Assembly: GCF_040958695.1 (NCBI RefSeq)
Contig: NZ_CP162599.1
Span: forward strand, 282,001-346,000
Direction of reading: 5' to 3'
DNA: 64,000 bases
Source of the DNA: Ornithinibacillus sp. 4-3
GTDB lineage: Bacteria > Bacillota > Bacilli > Bacillales > Amphibacillaceae
Shown: piece after piece, positions 20,605 through 33,455 of the stretch
Layout: every line of letters begins with the position of its first letter
How positions within the stretch are numbered: the stretch's first letter is position 1
Made by a program: the position numbers and the translations under genes
Notes under the pieces: generated by a model
Told to the model about the DNA's origin: nothing
Seen by the model: only the letters and a program-made list of their open reading frames with translations
Database searches by the model: none

Positions 20605-21345
20605 TTTTAGAAAACCCCTGGCTATGCCGGGGGTTCTAAAGAGCTTCAAGCGTGGGGTCAAAAAAAGCCTCTCTTCATGGTAAGCTAAGGTTGGTTTCCC
20701 GACCACCAAAACTCACCAAAGAAGGAGGCAAAGCCCTATGCAGGACAAGAATAGTTTAGCACATACAAAGTGGAGATGTAAGTATCATATAGTATTTGCT
20801 CCAAAATATAGAAGACAAGTGATTTATGGAAAATACAAACAAAGTATTGGAGAAATTATAAGAGAGCTTTGTGAAAGAAAAGAAGTTGATATACACGAGG
20901 CAAATGCGTGTAGAGATCATATTCATATGTTAGTGAGTATACCACCGAAATTAAGTGTATCTTCCTTCATGGGATACTTAAAAGGAAAAAGTAGCTTAAT
21001 GATATTTGATCGTCACGCGAATTTAAAGTACAGATACGGTAATCGAAAATTCTGGTGTCGAGGCTACTTTGTAGATACAGTGGGAAGAAATAAAAATCAA
21101 ATACAAGAATACATAAGAAATCAGCTTAAAGATGACTACATGAGTGATCAATTAACTTTATTCGAAGAATTTGATCCATTTACAGGGAAGAAAAATAAAA
21201 AGAAATAAGAGATTCTTTTAGAATCAGTGAGTAAGTGTGGTGCAAAAGGGAAACCCATTCAGTGGGCCTTTAAGGCCAAGGCCGGTAACAGAGGCTTCTA
21301 GCCGCAGAACAAACCACCAGTTCACACTGGTGGTTTTGATTTCTT
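20605..21345 (+). mobile_element. IS200/IS605-family element (IS200 type, tnpA only)
   Basis: The tnpA gene is bounded by subterminal hairpins. The left one is AACCCC..GGGGTT (20613-20635); the right one is AAACCACCAG / CTGGTGGTTT (21311-21336). Such imperfect end palindromes are how single-strand IS200 transposases recognise their ends. Exact cleavage sites cannot be set by eye. Confidence 0.75.
20738..21208 (+). CDS. tnpA: IS200/IS605 TnpA, Y1 HUH transposase
   Basis: 156 residues. The HUH motif is HIH at residues 61-63 (RDHIHMLVSIPP) and the catalytic tyrosine is Y125 in QIQEYIRNQL. Both are needed for single-strand cutting and joining, and both are present, so the enzyme looks intact. 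GAAGGAGGC lies upstream of the ATG. No tnpB is next to it; the tnpB at 57.5 kb is far away and separate. Confidence 0.9.
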   Translation: MQDKNSLAHTKWRCKYHIVFAPKYRRQVIYGKYKQSIGEIIRELCERKEVDIHEANACRDHIHMLVSIPPKLSVSSFMGYLKGKSSLMIFDRHANLKYRYGNRKFWCRGYFVDTVGRNKNQIQEYIRNQLKDDYMSDQLTLFEEFDPFTGKKNKKK

Positions 21346-22281: not shown

Positions 22282-22397
22282 AAATAAACACTGCTTACCT
22301 ATTTAAAATGTACCCTATAAGATAGACACTTTAAAAAGTCTCTCTTATGGGGTACTTTTATTTATAATGAAAGAAATTGCGAATGGGGCGGATGAAA

Positions 22398-22808
22398 ATG
22401 TCGAAAATATTATTTACAGATCAAGAACAGTACTTATTGATGAAACATCCTTATGTAAAAGCGGTTAGTAAAAAGGCAATTACATACACGGATGAATTTA
22501 AAGCAATAGCTGTTAAAGAATATGGAGAAGGAAAATTTCCTCGTCAAATATTTGAAGATGCAGGATTTGATATTGAAATCGTTGGGATTGAACGCGCTAA
22601 ATCGGCTTTAAAAAGATGGCGTACTGCCTATCAAGAAAAGGGTTTGGAAGGGCTTGAGGATTCACGTAACTCTTCTTCAAGACGTCTTCTTGCGCGTGAA
22701 TTAAGTATAGAAGAAAAGTATGCTCGATTAGAAGCACAAAACGCATTATTACGCGCAGAAAATGAATTACTAAAAAAGATCGATCTAGCAGAAAGACTAA
22801 CTATATAA
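22398..22808 (+). pseudogene. IS3-family OrfA, 3' end altered by IS110 insertion
   Basis: The helix-turn-helix half of an IS3 transposase: MSKILFTDQEQYLLMKHPYV, ITYTDEFKAIAVKEYGEGKF, then a leucine-zipper tail (ARLEAQNALLRAENELLKKI). ATG at 22,398 follows GGGGCGG; earlier in-frame starts at 22,377-22,392 are possible. The -1 slip heptamer A AAA AAG lies at 22,772-22,778. The IS110 insertion after base 22,800 replaces the native end (..AERLKP) by ..AERLTI and removes the link to OrfB, so no full transposase can be made. Confidence 0.8.
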
Positions 22809-22897
22809 AGTCAAGTGGAAAAGTAAAGTGATTTTTAGAAAAATGTATGGAAAAAACTCATGTCAAATAAGCATCAGATAAGCTGCCTTTTTTTCGC

Positions 22898-24082
22898 TTA
22901 CTGACGAATTTCATAAGGTTCATTTTTAGTTAATATCGCATGAATGATGTAACAGAGTTTTCGAGACACGGCACCTATTGATGTGAGATGATGCTTTCCT
23001 TCAGACCGTTTTTTCTCATAAAAAGCTTTCAAAACAGGATCACTTCTTGAAGCGACAATGGCAGCTTGAAACAGTGCTTTTCTAAGATAAGGAGAGCCAC
23101 GCTTGCTCATGACATTATGGGTTGAGTCAAATTGGCCGGATTGTGATACAGATGCATCAATACCAGCATAAGCGACTAATTTTTTAGGATTAGAAAATTT
23201 GTGAATATCACCAATTTCTCCTAATATCGTTGCACCAATTACTGGACCGATACCTGGAATCGTTTCAATAACTGAGTCAATAGATGTCATCAATTGGTTT
23301 ATTTCTTCTTCTGTTTGTTTTATTTGCGTTTCTAGAAAATTGAGCTGTTCAATCATGGAGCGGAATTGGAAAGTAAATGCATCCTGTGCAAACCGAATTC
23401 CAAAGGAGTTTGAAGCTGCTTTCTTTAGCGCTTCGGCTTTAATTAACCCCACACGATTACGGCTTGCTAAACCGAGTGTTTCAGCAAGCATATCGGCTGT
23501 AATTTCATTAAATGCATCCGGTGTGGAATATTCAAGTAGAGCAGCTCTTGAAGCTTTCCCAAACACACCAACTTTAGAAAAAACGGTATCGTATTCGGGG
23601 AAGATTTGATCTAAAACAGCAATGATTTTACGTTTAAAATCACCAGCAGTTCCAACGAGGTAAGAACGATAACGCGTCAATTGACGTAAGGAGAACATAT
23701 CCTCATTCGCTAAGGTAGTGTCTTCAAATGAACCGTAACGAATAAGATCGGCTATTAATACCGAATCAATGATGTCAGTTTTTCGCTTTCGAATTTCAGT
23801 CCCTTTCCTCCAACCATCAGTTTGGATGGGGTTAATGACATGGACGAAATAATTGGCTTCTTCTAGGAAGGAAAAAAGAGCGAGCCAATAATGACCGGTC
23901 GCTTCCATTCCTGTAAGGAAATATGATGGATCATCTGAAATAGCATTTAAACGAGTGAGTAATGAGTGACCGCCTTCAAGTGTGTTAGGGAAAGAAAATC
24001 CTTTTAAGACTACTTTCCCTGCATCGTCCATAACAGAAGCAACATGTGTACGTTTACCAATATCAATACCAAGATAAAACAT
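22898..24082 (-). CDS. IS110-family DEDD transposase
   Basis: 394 residues from the ATG at 24,082, chosen because GAAGGTG lies 6 bases upstream; an in-frame ATG 33 codons earlier falls in the putative RNA region. The RuvC-like DEDD domain shows D7 (LGIDIGK), E60 (GMEATGHYW), D103 and D106 (KTDIIDS). The C-terminal Tnp20 domain has IPGIGPVIGATILGEIGD, then AYAGIDASVSQSGQFD and the catalytic-serine motif SKRGSPYLRKAL. All key residues are present, so the enzyme appears functional. It recombines donor and target DNA, probably guided by an RNA made from the element. Confidence 0.92.
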   Translation of the reverse strand: MFYLGIDIGKRTHVASVMDDAGKVVLKGFSFPNTLEGGHSLLTRLNAISDDPSYFLTGMEATGHYWLALFSFLEEANYFVHVINPIQTDGWRKGTEIRKRKTDIIDSVLIADLIRYGSFEDTTLANEDMFSLRQLTRYRSYLVGTAGDFKRKIIAVLDQIFPEYDTVFSKVGVFGKASRAALLEYSTPDAFNEITADMLAETLGLASRNRVGLIKAEALKKAASNSFGIRFAQDAFTFQFRSMIEQLNFLETQIKQTEEEINQLMTSIDSVIETIPGIGPVIGATILGEIGDIHKFSNPKKLVAYAGIDASVSQSGQFDSTHNVMSKRGSPYLRKALFQAAIVASRSDPVLKAFYEKKRSEGKHHLTSIGAVSRKLCYIIHAILTKNEPYEIRQ

Positions 24083-24099
24083 CGCTTCACCTTCTTTAC

Positions 24100-24360
24100 T
24101 TGTTTTGGATTGAATGCCACTCAACTGAAAAGCGTCACGACCTTGTGCTAAATACGGAGTAAGGCAATACGCCTTCAACATCTAACTCATTCGCAATCAG
24201 CTTAACAGAGAGAGGGATCAGTCTTTCGATAACGAGTTTTATCACCCAAGGTTGGAACGATCCACCTCTCAATCCATTAAGTATATTTTCTCAAATAATT
24301 GAGGAAATACCAACTTAGAAACAACTTAGGTTCATAAGGTTTTCCTTTCAAAGTCGGGAG
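24100..24360 (-). ncRNA. Probable bridge RNA region of the IS110 element
   Basis: This non-coding end on the transposase strand can form a stem GAGAG..GGATC / GATCCCTCTC (24,259-24,270 with 24,210-24,219). The enclosed loop carries GAAAGACT next to the 3' arm (24,220-24,227). The same 8 bases occur at the insertion site (22,791-22,798). A second loop toward the start codon contains AGTTAG (24,182-24,187), which matches the element's left end, and a segment matching its right end at 8 of 10 bases (near 24,135-24,145). Bridge RNAs of IS621-type elements carry exactly such target and donor guides. Boundaries are approximate. Confidence 0.6.
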
Positions 24361-24365
24361 ACTAA

Positions 24366-25323
24366 AACCTTAAATATAATATACAAGGTTGTTGATAAAG
24401 GAAAAGAAAAACTAACTGCGGAACAGAAATTTCAGTTAGTCCAATTCGTCATTGAAAAATACGGTTTAAATCGAATGGTGAGGTATCTTTGTGAATTAGT
24501 TGGCGTCTCTAGATCAGGTTATTATCGTTATTTTTCAGAAGAAGCACAACTGAATAGACAAGCACGAGATAAAGCAGATGAAGAAGTAAAGGCAATCATT
24601 TTAAAAGCGTTCAATTTCCGCCGTCGTAAGAAAGGTGCACGTCAAATCAAAATGACATTAGAACATCAGTATCACATTACCTATAACTTGAAACGCATTC
24701 GTCGTATCATGAAAAAGTTTCAAATTATTTGTCCCATTCGAAAAGCCAATCCTTATCGAAGAATCGCGAAAGCAACGAAAGAACATAGAACACTACCGAA
24801 CCTATTAAACCGTGAATTTAAACAAGGAATCGCTAGAAAAGTATTATTGACAGACATTACCTACTTGAGTTATGGAAAAGGAAAACGTGCTTACTTATCC
24901 ACTATCAAAGATGCCGAAACCAATGAAATTTTAGCCTATGAAACATCTGATAGAATCACCCTAGATATTGCATTAAATACAGTCAAGAAGTTAAAAAACA
25001 GTAAGATAAAGTTGGCTGAAGACGCATTCATTCACTCAGATCAAGGAGTTCACTATACGAACCCCCATTTTCAAAAGAAGGTGAAGGTAATGGGGCTAGG
25101 TCAGTCAATGTCCCGCCGTGGAAACTGTTGGGACAATGCCCCTCAAGAATCATTCTTTGGGCATTTTAAAGATGAAACAGACTTTAAATCGTGTGAAACA
25201 TTAGAAGAGGTAAAAAGAGAGATTAAGAGTTATATGATTTATTACAATCATTATCGAGGTCAATGGAACTTAAAAAAGATGACGCCTGCACAATACAGTC
25301 ATCATCTTCTTCAAGTTACTTAA
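24366..25323 (+). pseudogene. IS3-family OrfB (DDE integrase part), cut from OrfA
   Basis: The frame from 24,366 onward is OrfB: KEKLTAEQKFQLVQFVIEKY, then RYLCELVGVSRSGYYRYF, an HTH_21 region, and the rve catalytic core. The DDE residues are visible in LLTDITYLSYGKG, FIHSDQGVHYTNP and WDNAPQESFFGHF. In the rebuilt element this frame is -1 relative to OrfA and open across the slip site. With the IS110 insert between them the fusion cannot form. An ATG at 24,475 could give a 282-residue fragment without the N-terminal DNA-binding half. Confidence 0.85.
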
Positions 25324-25370
25324 TTCCCTAGAGTCTTTTTAAAAATGTCCTTTACAAAGGGTACACTTTA

Positions 25371-25501: not shown

Positions 25502-26317
25502 TCAGCTGATATTTCGGCAGATATTTTCTACCTCTTGTGGTGTCATATAATTTATACTCCCATGAATTCTTTTGCGATTATACCAACCTTCAATATACTG
25601 AAATAACGCTATTTTCGCTGAATATTCATCTAGATACTGAACATGATTGACTTCTTCCTTTTTTAAAATGGCATGGAACGATTCAATGCAAGCATTGTCA
25701 TAAGGGCTACCTTTATAGCTAAAAGAATGCTTTATGTTAAATTCGGTGATCAAAAATGCGAATTCATCGCTTGTATATTGACTACCAAGGTCTGAATGAA
25801 AGATAAGTTCTTCACAGGGTTGTTGCGTTTCATATGCATTTCGTAATGCGGTGCTTATTAATTCCGTTGTCATTGTGCGTCCAAAAGAATGGCCAACAAC
25901 CTTTCTTGAATGCAAATCCAAAACAGTTGCCAGATAGCACCAACCCTGCTTTAAGGTGTGGATATAAGTAATATCTCCAACCCATTTTTCATTGATTGTT
26001 TTCGTCTCAAAATCACGCTCTAAAATATTCTCACGTTCTATTATCTTTTCTTTACTCGGTGTCGGACGGAATTTCTTCGTTGTGATGGACCTGATATTTG
26101 CCTTTTTCATCAGGCGTTGCACACGTTTTAAACTTACATGATATCCGGCCAACTCTAATAAATGGTGGATTTTTGGTGCACCATAACGTTGTTTACTGTC
26201 GTTAAAAATTCGGATGATTTCTTTTGTTAGTTGTCGATTTTCCTGTTCTTGTTTTGAGATAGAAAACGTTAATGATTGATAGTACGTGCTCCTAGGAACA
26301 CCAAGCACTTCACACAA
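25502..26317 (-). CDS. IS3-family (IS150-like) OrfB, DDE transposase part
   Basis: 271 residues counted from the first in-frame start (MCEVLGVPRSTYYQSL); the frame stays open upstream to the OrfA slip site. It has the HTH_21 region (NDSKQRYGAPKIHHLLELAG), then the rve core with WVGDITYIHT, LIFHSDLGSQYTSDE and SPYDNACIESFHAILKKE, so all three DDE positions are present. The product is normally made as an OrfAB fusion by -1 frameshift at 26,380-26,386. The element looks intact. Confidence 0.9.
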   Translation of the reverse strand: MCEVLGVPRSTYYQSLTFSISKQEQENRQLTKEIIRIFNDSKQRYGAPKIHHLLELAGYHVSLKRVQRLMKKANIRSITTKKFRPTPSKEKIIERENILERDFETKTINEKWVGDITYIHTLKQGWCYLATVLDLHSRKVVGHSFGRTMTTELISTALRNAYETQQPCEELIFHSDLGSQYTSDEFAFLITEFNIKHSFSYKGSPYDNACIESFHAILKKEEVNHVQYLDEYSAKIALFQYIEGWYNRKRIHGSINYMTPQEVENICRNIS

Positions 26318-26376
26318 TGTATGAACAGGGTAATATTCTCTTTCTTGCTCGATGAAATCCGTAATATCGTTGTCGG

Positions 26377-26655
26377 TTACTTTTTTGCGAATATGGCCAT
26401 AGCTTTTTTTAATATTTCGTTCTCCTGTTGTAACTTAAGCATTTCTTTTTGCATCTTTGCGTAATCATCTGGTGTTACGGATGATCCATCTTCTAGCTCT
26501 ACTGGATTGAATTTTTTTATCCATGCATAAATAGTTACTTCTGAAACGCCATATTCACTGCTTAATTCCCTAGCTGATTGACCTGAACGATATAAATCAA
26601 CAACCATCTTCCTAAAATCATCATTGTAACGTTTACCATGTTTGTGATTTGCCAT
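26377..26655 (-). CDS. IS3-family (IS150-like) OrfA
   Basis: 92 residues from the ATG at 26,655 (MANHKHGKRYNDDFRKMVVD); a TTG three codons earlier is possible. It contains a helix-turn-helix (SARELSSEYGVSEVTIYAWI) and a leucine-zipper tail (EMLKLQQENEILKKAMAIFA). The end reads GC A AAA AAG TAA: the canonical heptamer at 26,380-26,386 lets ribosomes slip -1 into VTDNDITDFIEQEREYYP and on into OrfB. Confidence 0.88.
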   Translation of the reverse strand: MANHKHGKRYNDDFRKMVVDLYRSGQSARELSSEYGVSEVTIYAWIKKFNPVELEDGSSVTPDDYAKMQKEMLKLQQENEILKKAMAIFAKK

Positions 26656-26794
26656 TGGACACAACCCCCTAGTAATAATTTTAAAGACTTAACTAAGTTG
26701 TGTCCATGAAACTATACTAGCATCAGTGCTTGAATCGGATCTGAGTCAATATTTTGTCATATTATTATTTTAAAATTATAAACTTAGCCTTATA

Positions 26795-32829: not shown

Positions 32830-33455
32830 TTACCTAATTTATCGTGTATTTGATGACTCTAGTGGATACTATTTGGTAAAAGGCGTTAGAGTCATGATTA
32901 GTAGCGCGTCTACTTTTTGTACCCAATTTGATTTTTAAATCTATATATGGTATAGTATTTTGAAACGTATTTCGGAATGTATATTGAAATAAATTATTTT
33001 TTAGACTTATTCACACTGGCACAACTTAGGGGTTGTAAGGATGTATGAGAAGGTAGGGCATACATTGTTTGGGTTCATTAAATTAATACTACCGCGGCAA
33101 TTTATTTTAAAGATTCGAAGTATATAGCGCCCACGTGGCACTTTTTATAATGCGTCCTATTATGTAGGGCGTATTTTTTATGGTTATAAGATCCAGAGTT
33201 TCAAGAAATTTGAATCATAACATTTTCTTGGTTAAAATGCTTTAATAACAGGAAACTTTAGTAAAAGTAGCTGGATAATTTGTATGAATAGTTTATAATA
33301 GTAAGGTATTTCTTTTTTCGAGATATCGGAATATTTTAATTGATTATTTAAAGGTAGTTTGTACTTTAAATAGCTGACTCTTCTTTATAAAAACTTGGCT
33401 TGTTTTTATATAAATTTGAAGAAATAAGTAATTAAAAACGGGGGGTTAGATTTTT
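32830..33455. other. Intergenic region between the two SBP genes with leader-like elements
   Basis: No gene is seen. It holds a T-box-like core ACTACCGCGG (about 33,091-33,100), a terminator-like hairpin TGCGTCCTA / TAGGGCGTA with a T run (about 33,151-33,180), and a nine-pair hairpin TATTTAAAG / CTTTAAATA (about 33,345-33,372). Together they suggest a leader for the second SBP gene. A GGGGGTTAG site lies before its ATG. Confidence 0.45.

Follow-up and report, generated by a model that had tools for sequence, protein, structure and literature searches.

A 1592-bp IS110-group element of Ornithinibacillus sp. 4-3, inserted into an IS3-family element, almost certainly carries in its 5′ end a guide-bearing bridge RNA that would direct exchange at a CT core into this IS3 target. 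The element lies within a 64,000-nucleotide stretch of contig NZ_CP162599.1, referred to here as the window, whose coordinates are used throughout. The mechanism is already known from IS621 and seekRNA systems; the interest of the present case lies in the target class and in a switch of guide. PMC11208160 and PMC11208158 describe the bridge RNAs of IS110 elements, with their guides, their handshake bases, the CT core and expression from a circle; the latter paper contains the handshake model of IS621. The following features were distinguished in the element and its host:

22304..25370, plus strand: IS3-family host element, 1475 bp when the insert is excluded (Pfam HTH_Tnp_2, rve and HTH_21)
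22377-22808: orfA of the host IS3; orfA and orfB are both interrupted by the IS110 element
22794-22795: second copy of the CT core of the IS110 element
22796..24387, minus strand: IS110-family element, 1592 bp with one CT core, delimited by comparison of empty (L005-L007) and filled (L001-L003) copies
22809..22814, minus strand: −35 hexamer TTGACT at RE, brought together with the −10 hexamer only by circle formation
22898..24082, minus strand: IS110 recombinase, 394 aa (PF01548, E 5.4e-44; PF02371, E 9.5e-28)
24378..24383, minus strand: −10 hexamer TATATT at LE

The recombinase is composed of a DEDD RuvC-like domain and a Transposase_20 domain (PF01548 and PF02371, both above cut-off), and is a distant relative of the IS621 protein (8wt6; E 1.3e-22, 83.8 bits). 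A longer ORF of 427 aa, starting at 24181, was taken as an artefact; its start falls within the donor loop. The initial annotation had pointed to the asymmetry of the non-coding ends, and these are indeed long and short, with lengths of 305 nt for LE (5′) and 102 nt for RE instead of the proposed 280 and 95. The element belongs to the IS110 group of the IS110 family. Membership of the IS1111 group was rejected, since a bridge RNA would then be expected in RE and is here found in LE.

The Ornithinibacillus sp. 4-3 genome contains three identical 3067-bp IS3::IS110 composites and three intact, mutually identical 1475-bp IS3 copies. The intact copies show the site before insertion, CAACAAC-CT-TTCTGC, and thereby establish target, donor and core; the filled junctions are CAACAAC-CT-TGTATATT and ATAGTTAGT-CT-TTCTGC. 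Target and donor share CTT at the junctions; the recombination core lies within this triplet and was taken to be CT, as in IS621. The insertion point is the orfA/orfB overlap of IS3 in all three full copies.

Excision to a circle would join RE and LE and create the promoter TTGACT-17-TATATT, from which the bridge RNA would be transcribed. The pattern, with 17-bp spacing to an LE hexamer (TATAAT, TATGAT, TATATT or TATACT), was found, as a match to consensus, in 73 of 74 elements. The predicted RNA is organized as follows:

24106..24276, minus strand: bridge RNA, closing helix to closing helix, with putative ends (leave-out model match at 24123-24268)
24125..24200, minus strand: donor-binding loop (helices 4-6 of the pairing analysis)
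24142..24146, minus strand: right donor guide ACAAG, complementary to the element's own LE
24182..24187, minus strand: left donor guide AGTTAG, equal to the element's own RE
24210..24270, minus strand: target-binding loop, containing the stem of the initial annotation (helices 1 and 2)
24220..24222, minus strand: ACT at the putative handshake position, pairing with the element's own AGT adjoining the core
24223..24227, minus strand: right target guide GAAAG, pairing with CTTTC of the target
24249..24257, minus strand: left target guide TTCCAACCT, with CAACCT identical to the target and the next T (24248) also matching
24271..24276, minus strand: 5′ strand of the closing helix, TGGATT, pairing with 24106-24111

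Relatives were drawn from genome contigs, whole genomes and viral contigs, and 33 five-prime regions were aligned; the element's ends and core, the structure of the RNA, the agreement of guides with target and donor and the Shine-Dalgarno enrichment reported here are shown by sequence. A leave-out covariance model (R1), built from 28 relatives without the window's element and its three closest relatives (L010, L011 and L054), matches the window at 136.1 bits (E 1.3e-29); the bridge RNA proposed in the initial annotation for the IS110 5′ region proved right in substance. In the genome of the host the model finds four places, three of them the three copies of the element, and at 1e-6 it matches in 13 of 156 genomes of the same family, this one included.

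In the RNAalifold consensus a target loop precedes a donor loop, each with a stem, internal loop and terminal hairpin. The consensus pairs are formed in 96.4% of 976 alignment cells, against 36-51% for slid partners; changes on both sides occur in 18 of 30 pairs, and the covariation score was reached by none of 500 shuffles. Weak among the five pairing measures were the number of pairs with a double change (28/500 shuffles) and further pair types (390/500). The stem and loop lie where they had been placed beforehand, and covariance support for the stem, then named as a test, is provided by both the model and the pair counts: helices 1 and 2 are paired in 99.2 and 97.7% of cells, and all four pairs of helix 2 show compensatory double changes. 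The closing helix, absent from the RNAalifold consensus, encloses both loops. It occurs in the compensatory forms TGGATT/AATCCA, TTAGATA/TATCTAA and AGGATT/AATCCT (core pairings GGATT/AATCC, AGATA/TATCT and others), and its longest paired run averages 6.15 with the element's own tail versus 4.94 with tails from other 5′-strand types. When folded alone, the window RNA has a stability z of −2.6 (2 of 200 shuffles as good), and in its minimum-energy and centroid structures the left guide pairs with the GAGAGG strand and the target-loop stem is absent. Rfam returned no bridge-RNA family at gathering or permissive thresholds, and no match to the element above the gathering score.

Of 75 distinct insertions with both ends found, 69 could be scored for guide-target agreement with the left guide and 65 with the right. 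The window's left guide has six contiguous matches (seven with the next T) and one possible wobble, positions 2 and 3 of 9 being mismatched; no other guide group's target outscores its own. This CAACCT(T), at 24248-24254, is the AACCTT that had been doubted earlier as too short, and the permutation test speaks against that doubt: left guides agree with their own targets at 4.71 of 6 non-core positions versus a permuted mean of 3.21 (n = 69; 0 of 20,000 permutations as high), and at 4.46 versus 2.99 when grouped by the 25 distinct guides (again 0 of 20,000). For right guides the agreement is 3.46 of 5 versus 2.83 (n = 65; 0 of 20,000), and grouping by 12 guides left 2 of 20,000 permutations as high. 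Related elements enter the ungrouped counts as separate cases; the grouped tests are the more cautious. Some elements fit poorly at the non-core left positions (2.5-3 of 6 for L028, L029/L069 and L145), and in L044 a GAAAG guide faces the target CTTATT. The refuting condition named in the initial annotation, further copies at sites lacking the guide match, did not hold: each of the genome's three full copies occupies the same GAAAG-containing site, and relatives with another right guide are found at other sites: L068 (guide AAAAG) at CTTTT and L046 (ATTAAG) at CTTAAT, with CTTATT or CTTATA in five sister copies (L047-L051). By these sequence comparisons the two target guides fit the two strands of the insertion site and change together with it, and the relatives form a series of natural bridge RNAs whose targets and donors are known and whose guides follow the target. 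The 25 left guides may be of use in engineering bridge recombinases.

These counts were made after L034 (ambiguous LE, masked base) had been dropped. L156 and L157 (short left flank) were dropped from the guide-permutation, Shine-Dalgarno and rebuilt-site counts, L065, L073 and L136 (loop not parsed) from the guide permutation, and L016, L017, L024 and L148 (short right flank) from the right-guide test. Loci with non-fitting ends were uncounted, some being recovered by wider patterns. The definition of the clade therefore depends on the ends, with an RE pattern that includes one T of the target.

The initial annotation had presented an 8-base identity at the junction as the match to the target. 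The sequence GAAAGACT is present at 24220-24227, and the filled RE junction AGTTAGT-CT-TTCTGC contains its complement, AGTCTTTC. With the empty site being CAACAAC-CT-TTCTGC, and ACT matching the end of the element, guide pairing with the target is confined to the five bases GAAAG; ACT would pair with the element end as handshake bases do. The identity is weak as stand-alone evidence, given that 8.4% of 2,000 random window 15-mers reach at least 8 bases (best match anywhere in the 283-nt region, either strand). It is the comparative sequence evidence, not the identity, that makes the guide match real.

The donor guides follow the element's ends. The left guide equals the element's own RE in 72 of 73 elements (AGTTAG in 42, AGTTGG in 29, AGCTGG in one), in agreement with the terminus-matching AGTTAG noted earlier in the second loop (24182-24187). 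The right guide, of three types, is complementary to the element's own LE in 73 of 73, and both guides track natural end changes (AGTTAG/AGTTGG; ACAAG/ACGAG/ATAAG). These are raw, unpermuted counts from a search pattern that restricts the candidates; L073 was unparsed, and 19 of the 73 elements have a second, non-matching right-guide candidate. The donor-loop segment AGCACAAGGT does resemble the terminus, as had been claimed, at 7 rather than 8 of 10 positions; an 8/10 match exists in the target loop, and further ones lie outside the guides.

It is very improbable that the stem acts as a regulatory leader or attenuator in the recombinase mRNA, with merely coincidental matches to target and ends. 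The stem does lie directly upstream of the recombinase start, and an earlier proposal, mentioned in the part of PMC11208160 considered, gave the non-coding ends a role in regulating the recombinase, but the tracking of target and donor by guide positions across elements is not predicted by a regulatory role. For the bridge RNA, the mode of action would resemble that of IS621 (Durrant 2024, PMC11208160; Hiraizumi 2024, PMC11208158), which shares the recombinase family, an RNA in LE, the CT core, the order of target loop before donor loop, a left guide matching the top strand with a right guide pairing to it, and ncRNA expression from the circular form (here predicted from the promoter consensus). 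IS621 differs in targeting REP elements, and the proteins are only distantly similar (83.8 bits). In the target loop, CAACCT would pair with one strand and GAAAG with the other around the CT core, the donor loop (AGTTAG, ACAAG) would likewise pair with the joined element ends, and the recombinase would then exchange strands at CT.

To judge from their sequences, many relatives have guides directed at Shine-Dalgarno sites (CTCCTTTCT). Read on the gene strand, the string present before insertion was most often GAAAGGAG (32 of 73), followed by GAAAGGAA (10 of 73); these are Shine-Dalgarno-like, and an ATG often lies a few bases downstream. Under a strict rule (start codon 4-14 nt from AGG; an open frame of 40 codons or more, or of 15 or more where it runs off the contig), 48 of 72 insertions qualified, versus 69 of 219 control AAGGAG sites (31.5%) from the same loci (p 1.6e-7), a 4.3-fold enrichment in odds. 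The proportion was 1127/7256 for any AGG sites, and an ATG-only version gave 38/72 versus 43/219. The strict test was failed by 24 of the 72 insertions, including that of the window; the IS3 site (L001) as a Shine-Dalgarno sequence itself was accordingly rejected. One annotated case is on an Enterococcus casseliflavus plasmid, where a CDS begins at locus position 1483 and the LE core lies ten bases away, at 1493. Insertion left the longest Shine-Dalgarno match unchanged in 59 of 71 cases, the LE terminus rebuilding it, and shortened it in 11. Among the named hosts are Enterococcus, Amphibacillus, Peptoniphilus and Pectinatus (Bacillota) and Oceanivirga (Fusobacteriota), with the phylum looked up only for the last three.

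The target guides of these relatives resemble what we take to be the anti-Shine-Dalgarno sequence at the 3′ end of 16S rRNA. Several viral-contig relatives (within L154-L173) have left guides ACCACCTCCT or CCACCTCCCT, presumably also close to the 16S rRNA 3′ end, and targets such as TTCACCTCCT. We consider it likely that the target loop of this Bacillota/Fusobacteriota clade is a mimic of the 16S anti-Shine-Dalgarno, offering landing sites before genes genome-wide, with LE largely rebuilding the Shine-Dalgarno sequence, and that the window's element left this niche by one or a few left-guide base changes and is now a parasite of IS3, which may carry it. Survivorship, or a generic CCTTTC preference in place of a guide aimed at ribosome-binding sites, is a doubtful explanation of the excess: start-codon proximity is absent from any guide, the AAGGAG controls already reach 31.5% and 24 of the 72 insertions fail the strict test, but the guides spell CTCCT, CACCTCCT and similar sequences that vary with the local site, and the 4.3-fold enrichment is over those same controls. 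Selection and guide preference can both act on the excess.

IS900, a mycobacterial IS110-family element, inserts between the ribosome-binding site and the start codon (consensus with CNCCTT). By this target description it is like the present relatives an IS110-family element at ribosome-binding sites, differing in being mycobacterial; the literature searched for its target yielded no paper stating the IS900 insertion site. Resemblance of a guide to the anti-Shine-Dalgarno would suggest a molecular reason for the presence of some IS110 elements at ribosome-binding sites. No statement on Shine-Dalgarno targeting by IS110 elements was found in the literature searched, which included passages of PMC3196728, PMC7823733 and PMC11187229 and a word search of PMC11208160, most subscription journals lying outside it. 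More distant relatives have other targets (ACTCGCT/CTTTCC in L104 and L108). The sites of L104, L105 and L107-L109 (44-46% identity, same family) end in CGCT or CCCT followed by CTTTCC, and apparently lie in repeated non-coding DNA rather than in ribosome-binding sites.

The closest relatives of the window's element differ from it in the left guide, which is GTTTCATCCT in L010 and L054 (92% and 87% identical proteins) and GTTCACTCCT in L011 (90%), with targets ending in CATCCT and ACTCCT. The window's left guide is GTTCCAACCT and its target CAACAACCT; it reads CAACC where relatives have, e.g., TCTCC or CATCC, and L011 and L054 share its right guide, ATCGAAAG. The new site thus goes with a small change in the left guide, the direction of which is suggested by the majority of relatives. 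The L010 site passes the strict rule yet is not clearly a ribosome-binding site, and that of L054 fails it. Targeting of an IS3 gene and natural redirection are described for ISEc21 and ISMch6 in the parts of Siddiquee 2024 (PMC11187229) considered, where three guide bases are altered in a relative with a 72% identical transposase. These seekRNA systems are alike in targeting IS3-family transposase genes and in the circle promoter; ISEc21 hits codons around the second D of DDE, whereas the window's element hits the orfA/orfB overlap and many of its relatives target Shine-Dalgarno sites instead.

The three composites occupy separate loci, and all six IS3 copies, filled or empty, are flanked by perfect 3-bp repeats. 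The genome has 28 unoccupied CAACCTTTC sites, 3 in IS3 and 25 outside. If this 9-mer suffices, three of three copies in IS3 has a probability of 0.004 (31 candidate sites, 25 non-IS3), and guide choice alone therefore does not predict all three copies there. Three independent insertions are less likely than carriage by IS3 or a need for a longer site. We lean towards a history in which the bridge RNA is real and IS3 carried the IS110 element after one guided insertion, mobilised in trans by intact IS3; the guide would then account for a single event rather than three. In favour of this history are the composites, identical over 3067 bp, at three loci that all show flanking perfect 3-bp repeats, and the lack of a full copy at the 25 of 31 candidate sites outside IS3, but the empty IS3 copies are also mutually identical, leaving no marker that separates the histories, and the full site requirement is possibly longer than CAACCTTTC. 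Dating the insertions by IS3 differences was rejected as impossible, the copies being identical. A plasmid search revealed no near-identical element, and tblastn against phage records gave no match at 1e-60.

The L001 composite apparently lies inside another IS110 gene (L096/L091; genome positions 3038088-3038219 and 3041311-3042339), with aa 1-44 on one side (52% identical) and aa 52-393 on the other (46%), and this outer IS110 gene has a bridge-RNA match to itself at 3037905-3038039 (63.6 bits); the locus appears to consist of three nested insertion sequences. A truncated relative, with a short coding remnant and RE beside CTTTCTTATTGC, was found at L004 1465-1700 (genome positions 3053630-3053863), and the end pattern did not find its LE. 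By eye, the window also contains an IS200/IS605-type TnpA-like ORF (20738-21208) and, beside the host IS3, another IS3-like pair of orfA and orfB in minus orientation (25502-26664). Window positions 32991-33078 match BsrC in Rfam (73.8 bits).
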